A DNA stretch of 64,000 bases from NCBI RefSeq assembly GCF_018780385.1, contig NZ_JADMJO010000016.1:62001-126000 (forward strand), written 5' to 3'. Below, one piece after another: positions 8,739 to 15,811 of this stretch. A program made the position numbers and the translations under genes. The notes below the pieces were generated by a model, which saw only the letters and a list, made by a program, of their open reading frames with translations, ran no database searches and had not been told where the DNA came from. The stretch is from Hydrogenophaga sp. (GTDB lineage Bacteria; Pseudomonadota; Gammaproteobacteria; Burkholderiales; Burkholderiaceae_C). Each line of letters begins with the position of its first letter. Within the stretch, counting starts at the first letter, position 1.

Positions 8739-11018
8739 TCAGCGCTGGGGCGGTTTCCAGCGCTTGAGCAGCAAGGCGTTGCTCACCACGCTCACCGAGC
8801 TCAGCGCCATGGCCGCACCCGCCACCACCGGGCTCAGGAAGCCGAGGGCCGCCAGCGGAATGCCCGCCACGTTGTAGGCAAAGGCCCAGAACAGGTTCTG
8901 CCGGATCTTGCTCACCGTGCGGCGCGAGATGTCGAGCGCGGCCGCCACCATCAACGGATCGCCCCGCATCAGCGTGATGCCGGCCGCGTGCATGGCCACG
9001 TCCGAGCTGCCGCCCTGGGTGTGGCTCATGGCCATGCCGACGTCGGCCGACGCCAACGCCGGCGCGTCGTTCACGCCATCACCCACCATCGCAACGACAT
9101 GACCACCCTCTTTCAAGCGCCGCACCACCGCCGCCTTGTCACCCGGCAACACCTCGGCCATCACTTCACCCTCACTCGCCCGCAAACCCAGGCGCGCCGC
9201 CATGGCCATCGCGGCGCCCTGGTTGTCACCCGACACCAGAACCAGGCGCATGCCGGCCGCGCGCAGCTCGGCGATGGCGGCCGCTGCGCCGGCCTTGGGT
9301 TCGTCACCGAACGCCAGCACGGCCAGGGGTGACCACACCGCATTGCCAGGGGCCCGACTGGCCAGCGCCGACACGGTGGATCCCTGTTGTTGCAGAGCCT
9401 GCGCACGTTCGGAAAGTGGTCCCAGATTCACACCGAGCTCGTCCATCCAGCGCAGGCTGCCCAGCGACAACAAAGCCCCTTGCACCATGCCCTGGCTGCC
9501 CCGGCCCGCCACAGCCTGCACATCGCTCGCCGCATCGGACAACACCACCAGCGAACGCGCCGTCGCCGCCTCGACCACCGCACGCGCCAGCGGGTGTGCG
9601 CTCTGCACCTGCAAGGCCGCTGCGGCCTGCAGCACCGCCAGTTCGTCCACACCATCCGCGGCTTCGATCACCAGCAGACGCGGGTGGCCCTCGGTCAGCG
9701 TTCCGGTCTTGTCGAAGGCCACGGTGTCCACCTTGTGCGCGATCTCCAGCGCCTGCGCGTCCTTGATCAAGATGCCGTGTTGCGCGGCCACACCCGTGCC
9801 CGCCATGATGGCCGCCGGCGTGGCCAGACCCAGCGCGCACGGGCAGGCGATCACCAGCACCGCCACCGCGTGGATCAGGGCCACTTCCATGGCCGCGCCC
9901 GTCCACAGCCAGCCCAGCATCGTGGCCAGCGCAATGACCAGCACCACCGGTACGAACACGGCCGCCACCTGGTCGACCATGCGCTGCACCGGCGCCTTGC
10001 CGGCCTGCGCGTCCTGCACCAGCGCAATGATCTGCGCCAGCACGCTGTGCGCACCGATCGCGCGCACCTTCACCTCGACCGCGCCTTCGCCGTTGAGCGA
10101 ACCGCCGGTCACGCCGTCACCCACGGCCTTGGCCACCGGCATGGCTTCACCCGTGAGCATGGATTCGTCGGCCTGCGTGCTGCCTTGCACCACCGTGCCG
10201 TCGGCAGCGAAGCGCTCGCCCGGCAACACACGCACCACATCACCCGGCAGCAGTTCGTCCACCGCCACATCGGTGATCTCGGTGCGGCGGATGCCGTCGG
10301 GCAACAGGTGGGCGCGGTCGGGCCGCAAGGCGTGCAGCGCGCGGATGGCGGATGTGGTCTGACGCTTGGCACGCGCTTCCAGCCACTTGCCCAGCAGCAC
10401 CAGCGTGATCACCACCGCCGAGGCTTCAAAGTACAGGTGCAGCATCTCGCCCGGCTCCGAGCGCCACCACAACCAGGTGGACAACGCCCACGCCGCGGTG
10501 GTGCCGATGGACACGAGCAGCTCCATGTTGCCGGTGAGTGCCTTGAGCGCATGCCAGCCGGCGCGGTAAAAGCGCGCACCCAGCACAAACTGCACCGGCG
10601 TGGCCAGCACGAATTGCATCCAGGCCGACAGCATCCAGTGCTGGCCGAACAGATCACCCACCATGGGCAACACCAGCGGTGCCGACAACACGATGCCGAT
10701 GAGCACCGGCAAAAAATCAACTGAAACACCCATCCAGCGCGCGTCGGCCACCGCATCCATGGCTTCCATCGTGCGGGGTTCATAACCCGCGTCGCGCACC
10801 GCACGCTTGATGCGCGCCAGGGCCTCGTGTGTGTCGCCCTCGGCGATCAGCACCCGCGCCGATTCGGTCGCCAGATTCACCGTGGCTTCCGACACACCGG
10901 TTTGTTTCTTCAAGGCCTTCTCCACCCGCAACACGCAGGAAGCGCAGGTCATGCCGCCAATGCCCAGGTCGATCTGGGCGGGCGCAAGGGAAACAGTGGC
11001 AGCGGTGATCGTGTTCAT
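8739..11018 (-). CDS. copA: Cu(I)-exporting P1B-type ATPase
   Basis: 759 residues. One N-terminal HMA domain with GMTCASC (Cys25, Cys28), eight membrane helices, the CPC metal site in helix 6 (VIACPCALGLATPAA, about residue 391), the phosphorylation motif DKTGT (about 434), the HP locus (SAHPLA) and GDGVNDAPA (about 644). It pumps cytoplasmic Cu(I) to the periplasm using ATP. Start taken at ATG 11018; a GTG at 11024 is also in frame, but the predicted -10 element ends at 11025, so the message may begin almost at the ATG. Divergent from copZ-cueR and apparently controlled by CueR. Confidence 0.95.
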   Translation of the reverse strand: MNTITAATVSLAPAQIDLGIGGMTCASCVLRVEKALKKQTGVSEATVNLATESARVLIAEGDTHEALARIKRAVRDAGYEPRTMEAMDAVADARWMGVSVDFLPVLIGIVLSAPLVLPMVGDLFGQHWMLSAWMQFVLATPVQFVLGARFYRAGWHALKALTGNMELLVSIGTTAAWALSTWLWWRSEPGEMLHLYFEASAVVITLVLLGKWLEARAKRQTTSAIRALHALRPDRAHLLPDGIRRTEITDVAVDELLPGDVVRVLPGERFAADGTVVQGSTQADESMLTGEAMPVAKAVGDGVTGGSLNGEGAVEVKVRAIGAHSVLAQIIALVQDAQAGKAPVQRMVDQVAAVFVPVVLVIALATMLGWLWTGAAMEVALIHAVAVLVIACPCALGLATPAAIMAGTGVAAQHGILIKDAQALEIAHKVDTVAFDKTGTLTEGHPRLLVIEAADGVDELAVLQAAAALQVQSAHPLARAVVEAATARSLVVLSDAASDVQAVAGRGSQGMVQGALLSLGSLRWMDELGVNLGPLSERAQALQQQGSTVSALASRAPGNAVWSPLAVLAFGDEPKAGAAAAIAELRAAGMRLVLVSGDNQGAAMAMAARLGLRASEGEVMAEVLPGDKAAVVRRLKEGGHVVAMVGDGVNDAPALASADVGMAMSHTQGGSSDVAMHAAGITLMRGDPLMVAAALDISRRTVSKIRQNLFWAFAYNVAGIPLAALGFLSPVVAGAAMALSSVSVVSNALLLKRWKPPQR

Positions 11019-11024
11019 GAACAC

Positions 11025-11131: not shown

Positions 11132-11338
11132 ATGAGCGAAGTCTTCACCGTGCAGGGCATGACCTGCGGCCATTGCGAAAAATCCGTGACCACCGCCATC
11201 AAGCTGGTCGACCCGCAGGCGCAGGTCACCATCGACCGGGTCCAGAACCGCGTCGAGGTGGACAGCACTCAGCCCCGCGACACCTTGGCTGCGGCCATTC
11301 GCGAAGAGGGTTATGAGGTGGCGGCGGGAGCGCCATGA
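11132..11338 (+). CDS. copZ: Copper chaperone CopZ
   Basis: 68 residues forming a single HMA domain: MSEVFTVQGMTCGHC places the copper-binding cysteines at positions 12 and 15. It carries Cu(I) in the cytoplasm and can hand it to CopA or CueR. AAGGA precedes the ATG at a good distance. Its stop overlaps the cueR start by four bases, so the two are translated as a pair. Confidence 0.93.
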   Translation: MSEVFTVQGMTCGHCEKSVTTAIKLVDPQAQVTIDRVQNRVEVDSTQPRDTLAAAIREEGYEVAAGAP

Positions 11339-11844
11339 TGGACAACGAGATCGACCTGCGGACAGCGTGGCCGGTCAACATCGGCAAAGCCGCCGAACTC
11401 AGCGGCATCTCACCCAAGATGCTGCGCCACTACGAAACACTCGGGCTGCTGGGTGATGTGGTGCGCACGGACAGCAACTACCGCCAGTACAGCCTGGCCG
11501 ACGTGCATTCGCTGCGTTTCATCCGCCGCGCACGCGACATGGGCTTCGGCCTGGACGCCATCGCCGAGCTGGTGAGCCTGTGGCACAACCGCAAACGCAG
11601 CAGCGCCAGTGTCAAGCGCATCACCCAGAAACACCTGGACGAACTGGCGCAGCGCATTGACGCCCTGCAAGCCATGCAGCGCACGCTGGGCGAATTGATG
11701 CACCTGTGCCCGGGCGATGGCCGTCCGGACTGTCCGATCCTGGACGACCTCGCCCACCCAGCCGCGCTGCCGAAAACCGGCACAAAACTTTACAGACCAG
11801 CCACATCAGCCCCACCGCGCAGAAACACCCCCCGACCACACTGA
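11335..11844 (+). CDS. cueR: Cu(I)-responsive MerR-family activator CueR
   Basis: 169 residues. N-terminal winged helix (NIGKAAELSGISPKMLRHYE), a dimerisation coiled coil, and a metal-binding loop with Cys125 and Cys133 (CPGDGRPDCPIL), the spacing that selects Cu(I)/Ag(I)/Au(I) in CueR. It should activate copA and copZ-cueR through the two 19-bp-spacer promoters in the divergent region. It is about 30 residues longer than E. coli CueR, with an extension at both ends. Confidence 0.93.
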   Translation: MMDNEIDLRTAWPVNIGKAAELSGISPKMLRHYETLGLLGDVVRTDSNYRQYSLADVHSLRFIRRARDMGFGLDAIAELVSLWHNRKRSSASVKRITQKHLDELAQRIDALQAMQRTLGELMHLCPGDGRPDCPILDDLAHPAALPKTGTKLYRPATSAPPRRNTPRPH

Positions 11845-11909
11845 AGTCATTCCACAGCCCACCGACCCAAGCTGTGGTGAATCTTCCTCAACGGTCACTA
11901 GGAGTGAAC

Positions 11910-12473
11910 ATGACATCGATTCCCAAACGCGCCCTGATGGCCGCCGCCCTGGCAGCCGCTTTCGCCGGTCTCTCGGCCACCGCCATCGCCCAAGGCACCA
12001 CGGCAGCCCCCACGGCACCGACCACCACGCAGGCCCAGGAAGGCGCCAAGGACGACCAGCGCGACGCCAAACGCGCCGAGCGCATGGCCAGGATGCAGAA
12101 ACGCATGGCCGAGCACCAGGCGGCCCTGAAGGCCGAACTGAAGATCACCGCCGCACAGGAACCCGCCTGGAATGCCTTCGTGGCACGCACCCAGCCAGAC
12201 GCTCGCCCGGCCCGCCAGGGCCCCCGCGAAGACTGGTCCAAGCTGACCACGCCCCAGCGCCTGGACAAGATGGCGGCCATGAAAGCCGAACGCGATGCCC
12301 GCATGAGCCAGCGCCATGACGCCATCAAGAGCTTCTACGCAGCACTCAACGTCGACCAGCAGAAGGTGTTCGACGCGAAACAGATGCAGGGTTTTCAGCG
12401 CGCCGGCATGAAAGGCCACGGCAAACACCATCACCACGGTGGTGGTCACCACCGCATGGGCGGCACGATCTGA
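11910..12473 (+). CDS. Spy/CpxP-like periplasmic protein with His-rich tail
   Basis: 187 residues. Signal peptide (RALMAAALAAAFAGLSATAIAQG), then a charged, mostly helical region with Spy/CpxP-type LTxxQ-like elements (LTTPQRLDKMAAM, NVDQQKVFDAKQMQGF). The C-terminal 18 residues are rich in histidine and glycine (GHGKHHHHGGGHHRMGG), a probable metal-binding tail. AGGAG precedes the ATG at 11910. The position directly after copZ-cueR (65 bases) suggests a periplasmic copper-stress chaperone or metal sink. The family assignment is good; the copper role is inference. Confidence 0.78.
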   Translation: MTSIPKRALMAAALAAAFAGLSATAIAQGTTAAPTAPTTTQAQEGAKDDQRDAKRAERMARMQKRMAEHQAALKAELKITAAQEPAWNAFVARTQPDARPARQGPREDWSKLTTPQRLDKMAAMKAERDARMSQRHDAIKSFYAALNVDQQKVFDAKQMQGFQRAGMKGHGKHHHHGGGHHRMGGTI

Positions 12474-12506
12474 TCGGCTCCCAAGCCGATGGACTTCTCT
12501 GCGTCT

Positions 12507-12719
12507 TGTTCTTATATATTCCTTTAAATACAAGATAGCAGTAGTAGTAGAGGGCGCTGTCCGCTGTGGACAAGCGCCCTTTCTCTTGTCCGATCAAGGA
12601 CTTGCACCCGCTCAAAGTCTGTGTGAAGGACCCTGGACCCGAACGGGCGAAAAAAGGATAACTGCCAAAAACTGGATGAGCCTGTGGATAAGTGAGGGTT
12701 TGTTCAAAAGATATACACA
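12507..12719. other. Origin-like region: AT-rich island, TAG trinucleotide repeats, DnaA boxes
   Basis: An AT-rich stretch (12507-12538) in GC-rich surroundings runs into five consecutive trinucleotides TAG-CAG-TAG-TAG-TAG (12536-12550), a GC-rich 14-mer (12551-12564) and TGTGGACAA (12565-12573, one mismatch from a DnaA box on the minus strand). Further on is a perfect box, TGTGGATAA (12683-12691), and ATATACACA (12711-12719, one mismatch). This order, unwinding element then DnaA-trios then GC spacer then DnaA box, is that of the bacterial basal origin unwinding system. It could be oriC or a second origin-like element. dnaA itself is not in the window. Confidence 0.55.
12551..12587 (+). terminator. 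Probable terminator after the Spy-like gene
   Basis: GGGCGCTGTCC pairs with GGACAAGCGCCC (one bulged base) around a short loop and is followed by TTTCTCTTG. It lies 78 bases after the Spy-like stop. The stem coincides with the GC spacer and DnaA box of the origin-like region, so the two readings compete or overlap. Confidence 0.5.
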
Positions 12720-12819
12720 GAGTTGTCATATCGGGCACGGAAACATGCCCTGACACCTGGGCACAAGCGTTTGCCGGTCGTGGGGTCCCCGGCTGTTAAA
12801 CTGCGCCGCTTCATGCCCG

Positions 12820-12858
12820 AGCCGATGCAGCGCATCGCCCGCGTCGGCTGCTTTTTTT
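12820..12858 (+). terminator. Hairpin with T-run just before minC
   Basis: AGCCGA (12820-12825) pairs with TCGGCT (12844-12849), with an inner GATG/CATC pairing, and seven T residues follow at 12852-12858. It ends 17 bases before the minC start, so it either stops transcription from the origin-like region or attenuates the min operon. Confidence 0.45.
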
Positions 12859-12875
12859 GTGAGCCTGTTTCGCCC

Positions 12876-13646
12876 ATGTCTGTTGCCCTCGCAGGAAGCG
12901 CGCCCACCACCTTCGAAATCAAGAGCGCGCACTTGCCCCTGGTGGCGCTCATGCTCAAGTCGTCCGATCTCGACCGTCTGGCCCAGGAGCTGACCCAGCG
13001 GTTCGGCGACATGCCCGACTTCTTCGACAACGATCCGCTGGTCATCGACCTGCATCCGCTCAATGTGGCGGAGGCCAACGCCCTGCCCGATTTCGGCGCC
13101 TTGCAAACCCTCTTGCGCCAATACCGGTTGGTGCCGCTGGCCGTGCGAGGCGGCACCATCGAGCAGACCCGCCTGGCCCTGGCCGCCGGTCTCACGAATG
13201 CGCCCGACGCATCGGTGCAGCGCGCCGCCCCCGCCGTGGTGCCAACCGAGATCACCAACGCCCCCGAACCCGTGGCGCCATCGGCACCCGCGCCGGCGCC
13301 CGGCGCCCTCGTCATCGACAAACCCTTGCGTTCCGGCCAGCAGGTCTATGCGCGTGGACGCGATCTGGTTGTGATGGCCATGGTCAATCCAGGCGCCGAG
13401 GTCATTGCGGACGGCCACATCCATGTGTATGCACCGCTGCGCGGCAAGGCCATCGCCGGTGCCCGTGGCAACGCCGATGCACGCATCTTTGCGCTCAGCA
13501 TGGCGCCCGAGCTGATCTCGATCGCCGGCATTTACCGCACCAGCGAAGTCGCACTGCCCGAGTCGATCCTGGGCAAGCCGGCGCAGGTGCGTCTGGTGCC
13601 CGGCCCCGACGGCGACAAGCTGGTGATCGACGCCATCGGCGCCTGA
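12876..13646 (+). CDS. minC: Septum-site determining protein MinC
   Basis: 256 residues. The N-terminal FtsZ-inhibiting domain (FEIKSAHLPLVALML, DLDRLAQELTQRFGDMPDFF) is joined by an Ala/Pro-rich linker to the beta-helical C-domain (SGQQVYARGRDLVVMAMVNPGAEVIADGHIHVYAPLRGKA split across the repeat turns), which binds MinD and dimerises. MinC blocks Z-ring assembly away from mid-cell. Start at ATG 12876; the frame is open further upstream through a hairpin/T-run, which is unlikely to be coding. First gene of minC-minD-minE. Confidence 0.94.
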   Translation: MSVALAGSAPTTFEIKSAHLPLVALMLKSSDLDRLAQELTQRFGDMPDFFDNDPLVIDLHPLNVAEANALPDFGALQTLLRQYRLVPLAVRGGTIEQTRLALAAGLTNAPDASVQRAAPAVVPTEITNAPEPVAPSAPAPAPGALVIDKPLRSGQQVYARGRDLVVMAMVNPGAEVIADGHIHVYAPLRGKAIAGARGNADARIFALSMAPELISIAGIYRTSEVALPESILGKPAQVRLVPGPDGDKLVIDAIGA

Positions 13647-14774: not shown

Positions 14775-15811
14775 TCAGCTGGCTGCCTTGTTCGGCCGGC
14801 GCGCGAGCAGCGCCATCAGCGCACATTCGGTGGCACGCAAACCCCGGGTGCCATGCGCTTTGCTGCCGTGTGGTGCGGCCCACCTTTCTTCGAAACAGCG
14901 CTGCACGGCGGGATGGATGTAGAACTTGCGGCAAACGGCTTCTGTATTGCCGATCTGTTGCGCAACCTGTCGCACCACCTCGCTCCAGGTGCTGCGTCGG
15001 GCGGCATTTCCAGGCCGCTCAGCACCTCGAGCGCGTGCACGCTGGCATGCCAGGTGCGAAAGTCCTTGGCGGTGAAATCCTCACCGCCGACTTCGCGCAG
15101 GTAGGCGTTCACGTGATGGGAACTCACCGCCCCGCGTCGGCCTGTCTCATCGATGTACTGAAAGAGGTGCTGACCCGGCAGATCCTGGCAGCGCTGCACG
15201 ATGCGTGCCGCGTGGCGGTCGGTCAGCCGGGCGCGCTGCTCGATACCGCCTTTGCCGCGGAAAGAGATGACGATCTCGTCCGCGCTTGTTTGAACGTGCC
15301 GATCGCGCAGTGTGGTCAGGCCGAACGAGCCGTTGTCCGCCGCGTACTCGGCATTGCCCACCCGCATCGCAGTGCGGTCGAGCAGGCGCACGATGGCGGC
15401 CACGACGGTTCTCCGGCGCGGTTCGTCACTGCGCAGGTCGCGCGCAACAGCTCGGCGAATGTGCGGAAGTCGGCGGCCGAATTCGCGCATGCGGCCGAAC
15501 TTCTTCAGGTCACGCTGGCTGCGCCAGGCCGCGTGGTAGCGGTATTGTTTGCGTCCGCGCGCATCGCGCCCGGTGGCTTGCAGATGGCCGCGTGCACTGG
15601 GGCAGATCCAGACATCGGTGTAGGCGGGCGGTATGGCCAGGCGGCGAACGCGTTCAAGTTGGGCGGCGTTGAGCACGGTCTGCCCGGACGCGGTGAGGTA
15701 TGAAAATCCCCGGCCGCGGCGCACACGGCGCCAGCCAGGCATGCTGTCTTGCACGTAGCGAAGGTCAGAATTCTTCAAGGGGGCTTGTTTCCAATGTTGC
15801 TCTGCGCGCAA
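14775..15811 (-). pseudogene. DNA topoisomerase IB, frameshifted before the catalytic tyrosine
   Basis: The first frame (15811 to about 14990) carries the poxvirus-type topoisomerase IB core: RVGNAEYAADNGSFGLTTL (catalytic Arg), FRGKGG (Lys) and FTAKDFRTWHA (Arg). Around 14985-14992 (GACGCAGCACC on the coding strand) homology jumps to the next frame, where TWSEVVRQVAQQIGNTEAVC and RKFYIHPAVQ hold the nucleophilic tyrosine and run to a stop at 14775. One missing base explains it. Without correction the protein lacks its tyrosine and runs on to a stop at 14816. Either a recent pseudogene or a sequencing/assembly error. Start uncertain (15811 or 15742). Confidence 0.82.

Follow-up and report, generated by a model that had tools for sequence, protein, structure and literature searches.

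Between an LTXXQ/CpxP-like gene (end 12473) and minC (start 12876), a Hydrogenophaga chromosome segment carries an AT-rich stretch, a tract of TAG trios, and several DnaA boxes. This raises the question of whether the site is the chromosomal origin of replication displaced from dnaA, an origin of the chromid or plasmid type, or a DnaA-controlled site that ties division to replication, all of which had been considered in a sequence-only reading of this DNA. The window, i.e., the whole stretch of 64,000 nucleotides that was analyzed, corresponds to C161:62001-126000 of a 5.38-Mb assembly in 161 contigs (G000). As detailed below, approximately positions 12500-12730 very probably constitute the oriC of the chromosome, at a location displaced from dnaA.

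Architecture of the site upstream of minC

The motifs described in the sequence-only reading could all be read directly from the sequence at their positions, and the polarity like that of the basal unwinding system (BUS) was confirmed, with the AT-rich stretch, the TAG trios, a 14-base spacer, and TGTGGACAA being followed by further boxes. The features of the site and its neighborhood are:

8739..11024: copA, oriented away from the site
11335..11844: MerR-type gene, oriented towards the site
end at 12473: LTXXQ/CpxP-like gene, oriented towards the site
12507..12538, plus strand: AT-rich stretch, the likely DNA unwinding element, read from the sequence
12531..12608, plus strand: core matched by the sequence model R1 with 83.8 bits, the sole match in the genome
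12536..12550, plus strand: DnaA-trio tract TAGCAGTAGTAGTAG (TAG-CAG-TAG-TAG-TAG), recognized by sequence, shuffles, and alignments
12551..12564, plus strand: GC-rich 14-base spacer AGGGCGCTGTCCGC between trios and box
12551..12580, plus strand: inverted repeat AGGGCGCT...AGCGCCCT around the first box, with a T-rich tail, a possible terminator of the left gene
12565..12573, minus strand: putative DnaA box adjoining the trios, TTGTCCACA (TGTGGACAA on the plus strand), one mismatch to TTATNCACA
12595..12604, plus strand: block CAAGGACTTG, conserved in same-genus alignments
12620..12627, minus strand: block TGTGTGAA, conserved in the 30-row alignment, possibly a weak DnaA box
12656..12661, minus strand: block GGATAA, conserved in the 30-row alignment, possibly a weak DnaA box
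12683..12691, minus strand: perfect DnaA box TTATCCACA (TGTGGATAA on the plus strand), at a position conserved in relatives
12711..12719, plus strand: DnaA box ATATACACA, which is TTATNCACA in some relatives of the 30-row alignment
12876..13646, plus strand: minC, the first gene of minCDE (PF03775, 8.4e-31; PF05209, 3.5e-17)

The BUS search rule asks for at least three trios in the right order and at most 16 bp from a DnaA box (PMC8287927), and the site has five trios, one of which is CAG, in this order and with a 14-bp spacer. The two further BUS features were found as well: an AT-rich stretch beyond the trios, present at 12507-12538 and in relatives, and a cluster of further boxes, namely a perfect one and one with a single mismatch, whose positions are conserved. 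The trio tract exceeds what chance would give: the search with up to two mismatches gave this single match in 64 kb and a mean of 0.00 in 100 shuffles. Perfect TTATNCACA occurs once in the 64-kb window (0.16 expected; at least one in 15 of 100 shuffles), and the sequence TTATCCACA has 10 copies across the 5.38-Mb assembly. Across the window as a whole, there is no excess of boxes when up to one mismatch is allowed (10 observed, 10.4 expected). Three of these ten boxes, however, cluster within 155 bp at the site.

The spacer and the first box together form the inverted repeat, a feature that the sequence-only reading does not mention. It has a perfect stem of 8 bases with a T-rich tail behind it, and the folding energy over 12545-12595 is -24.6 kcal/mol (z -4.76). 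Sigma-70-like promoters were not detected in a consensus scan of the site for promoters and terminators, the hairpin was absent from the output of that scan, and an Rfam search over 11900-13200 gave no match. The only repeat detected in the gap was a direct repeat of 12 nt, present in two copies spaced by 336 bases; iterons were not found there.

The claim that the flanking genes point away from the site holds for minCDE on the right and for copA, but not for the MerR-type and LTXXQ/CpxP-like genes just to the left, which face it. To the right, a gene for a bacterial topoisomerase IB (14816-15811) is convergent to minE and about 2 kb from the proposed origin.

Conservation in Hydrogenophaga and in the family

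A DNA search with 12500-12730 gave matches in 59 of 67 Hydrogenophaga genomes at E values up to 0.01, the weakest being short partial matches. In a 30-row Hydrogenophaga alignment, the trios, TGTGGACAAG, CAAGGACTTG, CTGTGTGAAG, GGGGAYAA, CTGTGGAYAA, and ACACAG are largely kept, and many bases between these blocks vary. The trio tract is retained with variations in the 30 same-genus rows and in family loci, and the TGTG of the first box is invariant across a 28-row alignment (A3). In 29 family loci, the 38-base stretch that matches the AT-rich part has 56-82% A+T. The absence of trios and boxes from close relatives had been named as an outcome that would speak against an origin; they are, in fact, kept. 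The block CAAGGACTTG beside the first box matches no motif known to us and is possibly the site of another origin-binding protein.

The sequence model R1 comprises 83 positions of the core and was built from 28 of the 30 same-genus loci, L065 and L066 being excluded because they are close to L068. It matched 325 of 398 family genomes, representing 100 of 115 genera; the other 73 genomes gave no match with the stricter filters applied in that search, which counts against the element being a general family origin. In an order-wide sample, 10 of 150 genomes were matched, four of which are family members. For the present genome and for three further Hydrogenophaga genomes (G015, G028, and G047), the R1 match is at this place alone. 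One match (L308 in G531) lies inside a coding gene and was discarded as a chance match. A genome from another family of the order (L305 in G504) may have a displaced origin as well, as it showed two weak R1 matches, one of them at 1501-1574, that are 0.8 kb apart and away from dnaA.

Across the species collection, 67 stretches were recovered with a strict pattern in which 20 bases are fixed. The titles of 64 of these records name Burkholderiales, its families, or genera belonging to it, and the remaining ones are titled Pseudomonadota, Proteobacteria, and Methylotenera; one of the records is flagged as unverified contamination. The exact match in a metagenome-assembled genome titled Methylotenera (L184) is possibly due to a mis-binned contig.

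Perfect boxes also accompany the element. In a set of 29 loci that omits second copies and L273 (the same site as L233), and of which four are from Hydrogenophaga, exact TTATNCACA occurs 26 times in the 8,700 bp made up by the 300 bp downstream of each core, versus 14 times in the remaining 103,611 bp of these loci, and is thus 22-fold denser next to the core, although it is absent within these 300 bp in 13 of the 29 loci.

Position relative to minC and dnaA

Element and minC could be compared on one contig in 53 of the 59 matching Hydrogenophaga genomes, the other 6 not being comparable. The distance to minC is at most 500 bp in 32 of the 53, 0.5-3 kb in 18, and 10-19 kb in 3, the element being upstream of the gene in each case. 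In another genus (G382 and G448), it adjoins minC in the opposite orientation, and in G123 minC is 53 kb away. Because of this large distance in G123 and the varying position and orientation elsewhere, minC is not a required but a frequent neighbor of the element.

The dnaA gene of the present genome is on a different contig (12 kb), and in all ten Hydrogenophaga genomes with mapped dnaA, the element is on the same contig as dnaA, at a distance of 48-210 kb. With R1, no match was found in the 12-kb dnaA contig of the present genome or in 3-kb loci around the dnaA C-terminal domain of the ten Hydrogenophaga genomes. We also mapped dnaA in 30 other family genomes, which were picked for contiguity, score, or distance and not randomly. 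In 24 of them, all R1 matches share a contig with dnaA and are no closer to it than 32 kb, the nearest match being 32-459 kb off; in G144, match and dnaA are on separate contigs. The other five have an R1 match that is separated from the C-terminal domain of dnaA by about 0.2 kb, and in these loci (L222 and L299-L302) the element is between dnaA and dnaN. The same arrangement is found in two of four examined loci from outside the family (L307 and L309). With the element in their dnaA-dnaN gap, some other lineages thus have it where oriC is canonically located. In several genomes, a contig starts within 1.5 kb of dnaA, with the element tens of kb away.

Two or three R1 matches are present in 21 of the 30 family genomes. 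In G296, one copy is at dnaA-dnaN and a second one is 28 kb away on the other strand. Trio-box modules in two or three copies (G047, G066, G070, G187, G197, G198, G296, G320, and others; L150 and L154) are commonly 0.3-10 kb apart, the spacing being 46 kb in G198, and the copies in G197 are inverted.

GC skew and parS-like sites

An origin at this site had been predicted to coincide with the minimum of the cumulative GC skew. As the present genome is split into 161 contigs, the skew evidence comes from six genomes of relatives, which were picked for contiguity, score, or distance and not randomly. In G111, G123, and G382, all from genera other than Hydrogenophaga and having the largest dnaA-to-element distances (264-459 kb), the cumulative skew computed from roughly half of the sequence has its minimum next to the element rather than at dnaA. 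A one-switch model with 5-kb blocks favored the element over dnaA by lnL differences of +6.8, +5.9, and +4.4, respectively, with the best switch 8, 35, and 4 kb from the element. The Hydrogenophaga genomes behaved differently: G028 (+2.0 for the element, best switch 84 kb off) and G015 (+0.4 for the element, best switch 127 kb off) did not decide between the two places, and G047 leaned to dnaA (-1.9). Since raw and third-position skew in these Hydrogenophaga genomes is weak and mixed, the skew argument rests on the three genomes of other genera, in which the skew minimum elsewhere that would have spoken against an origin at the element was not seen.

We also searched nine genomes for parS-like sites with up to one mismatch to a parS pattern, and a reversed control pattern gave no match in the nine genomes. 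Each genome had one group of such sites, which was a single site in G111. The distances to the element and to dnaA, respectively, were 9 and 275 kb in G382, 9 and 190 kb in G289, 21 and 285 kb in G123, 30 and 89 kb in G015, 33 and 129 kb in G304, 34 and 244 kb in G028, 51 and 171 kb in G047, and 165 and 624 kb in G111. In the present genome, group and element share a contig and are 36 kb apart, with dnaA on another contig. Hence, in all nine genomes the parS-like sites are either closer to the element than to dnaA (eight genomes) or on the contig of the element. Most parS sites lie within an origin domain that covers 20% of the chromosome around oriC (PMC7022226), and as this domain is wide, the closeness supports the element but would be weak support by itself.

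Weighing the explanations

A regulatory role could be considered, in which DnaA at this site controls minC and thereby ties division to replication, with the origin located at dnaA. In Hydrogenophaga, the element is indeed 0.1-3 kb upstream of minC in 50 of the 53 genomes and shares the strand of minC in 52 of them, the skew of G047 leans to dnaA, and the dnaA-rpmH gap of the present genome contains one perfect and one single-mismatch box. However, the element is far from minC in the three Hydrogenophaga genomes with 10-19 kb and in G123 with 53 kb, it is found in the dnaA-dnaN gap of other genera, and the skew of three genomes switches near the element and far from dnaA. Moreover, a repressor site would not be expected to have trios and an unwinding stretch. 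It is therefore improbable that DnaA acts here solely as a regulator of minC, as proposed in the sequence-only reading. Even less probable is that the site is just the intrinsic terminator of the LTXXQ/CpxP-like gene, with the letters of box and trios being coincidental. The perfect 8-base stem with its T-rich tail and its folding energy, facing the end of this gene at 12473, would fit a terminator, but a terminator has no need for conserved trios or for boxes 120-150 bp further on. In addition, the stem is not conserved along with the other motifs. A hairpin of -12 kcal/mol or better is formed in 24 of the 28 rows of A3, which are the best Hydrogenophaga DNA matches. Family-wide, however, only 5 of the 39 matches whose box was recognized, the window included, form one (the full set has 42 matches, of which 3 without a recognized box were left unfolded), while trios and box are kept much more widely. 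None of the weaker Hydrogenophaga matches in the family-wide set (L213, L216, L219, and L231) reaches -12 kcal/mol, and the stem is weak in L060, L063, L067, and L070, where the trios are kept and the box is kept or differs by one base. In addition to an origin role, the stem may also end transcription from the left.

The third option, an origin of the chromid or plasmid type, has the suggestion in the sequence-only reading in its favor and is highly improbable. With no iterons in the gap and no rep gene among ten neighboring proteins tested, the hallmarks looked for are missing; the contig carries minCDE as well as every parS-like site that the search at up to one mismatch detected in the assembly, and the element is on the contig of dnaA in all ten Hydrogenophaga genomes with mapped dnaA. 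The displaced chromosomal origin is favored over the regulatory site and over the terminator because of the copies in the dnaA-dnaN gap, the skew switches in three relatives, and the close parS-like sites, and it is this option of the sequence-only reading that the data support.

Comparison with known origins and a possible mechanism

In the BUS model, DnaA that is bound to a box assembles along the trios and thereby opens the duplex (PMC8287927). The site resembles the BUS of Bacillus subtilis and others in having TAG trios (consensus 3'-GAT-5') that adjoin a DnaA box with a spacer within 16 bp, but it has one box at the trios, whereas a tandem pair is predicted in 57% of origins, and its spacer of 14 compares to a peak at 10-13 (PMC8287927). 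The published model fits the site. By analogy to that work, DnaA would bind all three boxes (12565, 12683, and 12711), perhaps along with weak sites in between. Starting at the 12565 box, a DnaA filament would then grow over the spacer, reach the TAG trios, and melt the AT-rich stretch, where the helicase would be loaded. Unlike the BUS module, the Hydrogenophaga site is not beside dnaA.

The oriC of Escherichia coli is neighbored by gidA and mioC and has several DnaA boxes beside an AT-rich region. The Hydrogenophaga site is similar in its location away from dnaA and in its several DnaA boxes beside an AT-rich region, but its trios are clear and its neighbors are minCDE; E. coli oriC, also described as separate from dnaA, has a weak BUS score (PMC8287927). 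Displaced origins are already known, for example from Cupriavidus metallidurans (PMC2864759). On chromosome 1 of strain CH34, the skew transition is about 90 kb from dnaA-dnaN-gyrB, by a region of 213 nt that contains three perfect DnaA boxes (PMC2864759). This resembles the skew switches near the element and far from dnaA in G111, G123, and G382, but trios or a conserved family element are not mentioned for the CH34 origin in the available text of that paper (PMC2864759). For chromosome 1 of Burkholderia cenocepacia, the exact origin was left uncertain in the corresponding text (PMC4948915).

Implications

What is added to current knowledge is a defined trio-bearing element that recurs throughout the family. 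It is found in the dnaA-dnaN gap and also at displaced positions, and most of the Hydrogenophaga genomes examined have it beside minC. An origin beside minC in this group was not described in the titles and abstracts among the matches listed from the open-access literature. It is tempting, albeit speculative and rather doubtful at present, to view the family origin as a portable cassette that was copied from the dnaA-dnaN gap to remote places via multi-copy stages, with subsequent loss of the dnaA copy, and that settled beside minC in Hydrogenophaga, where origin-bound DnaA could also time minCDE transcription.

The element may be useful for finding the origins of many related bacteria. Should it be oriC, hundreds of species would have a marker for their origin, mini-chromosomes could be given a defined oriC, and the way would be open to study how origins move away from dnaA.
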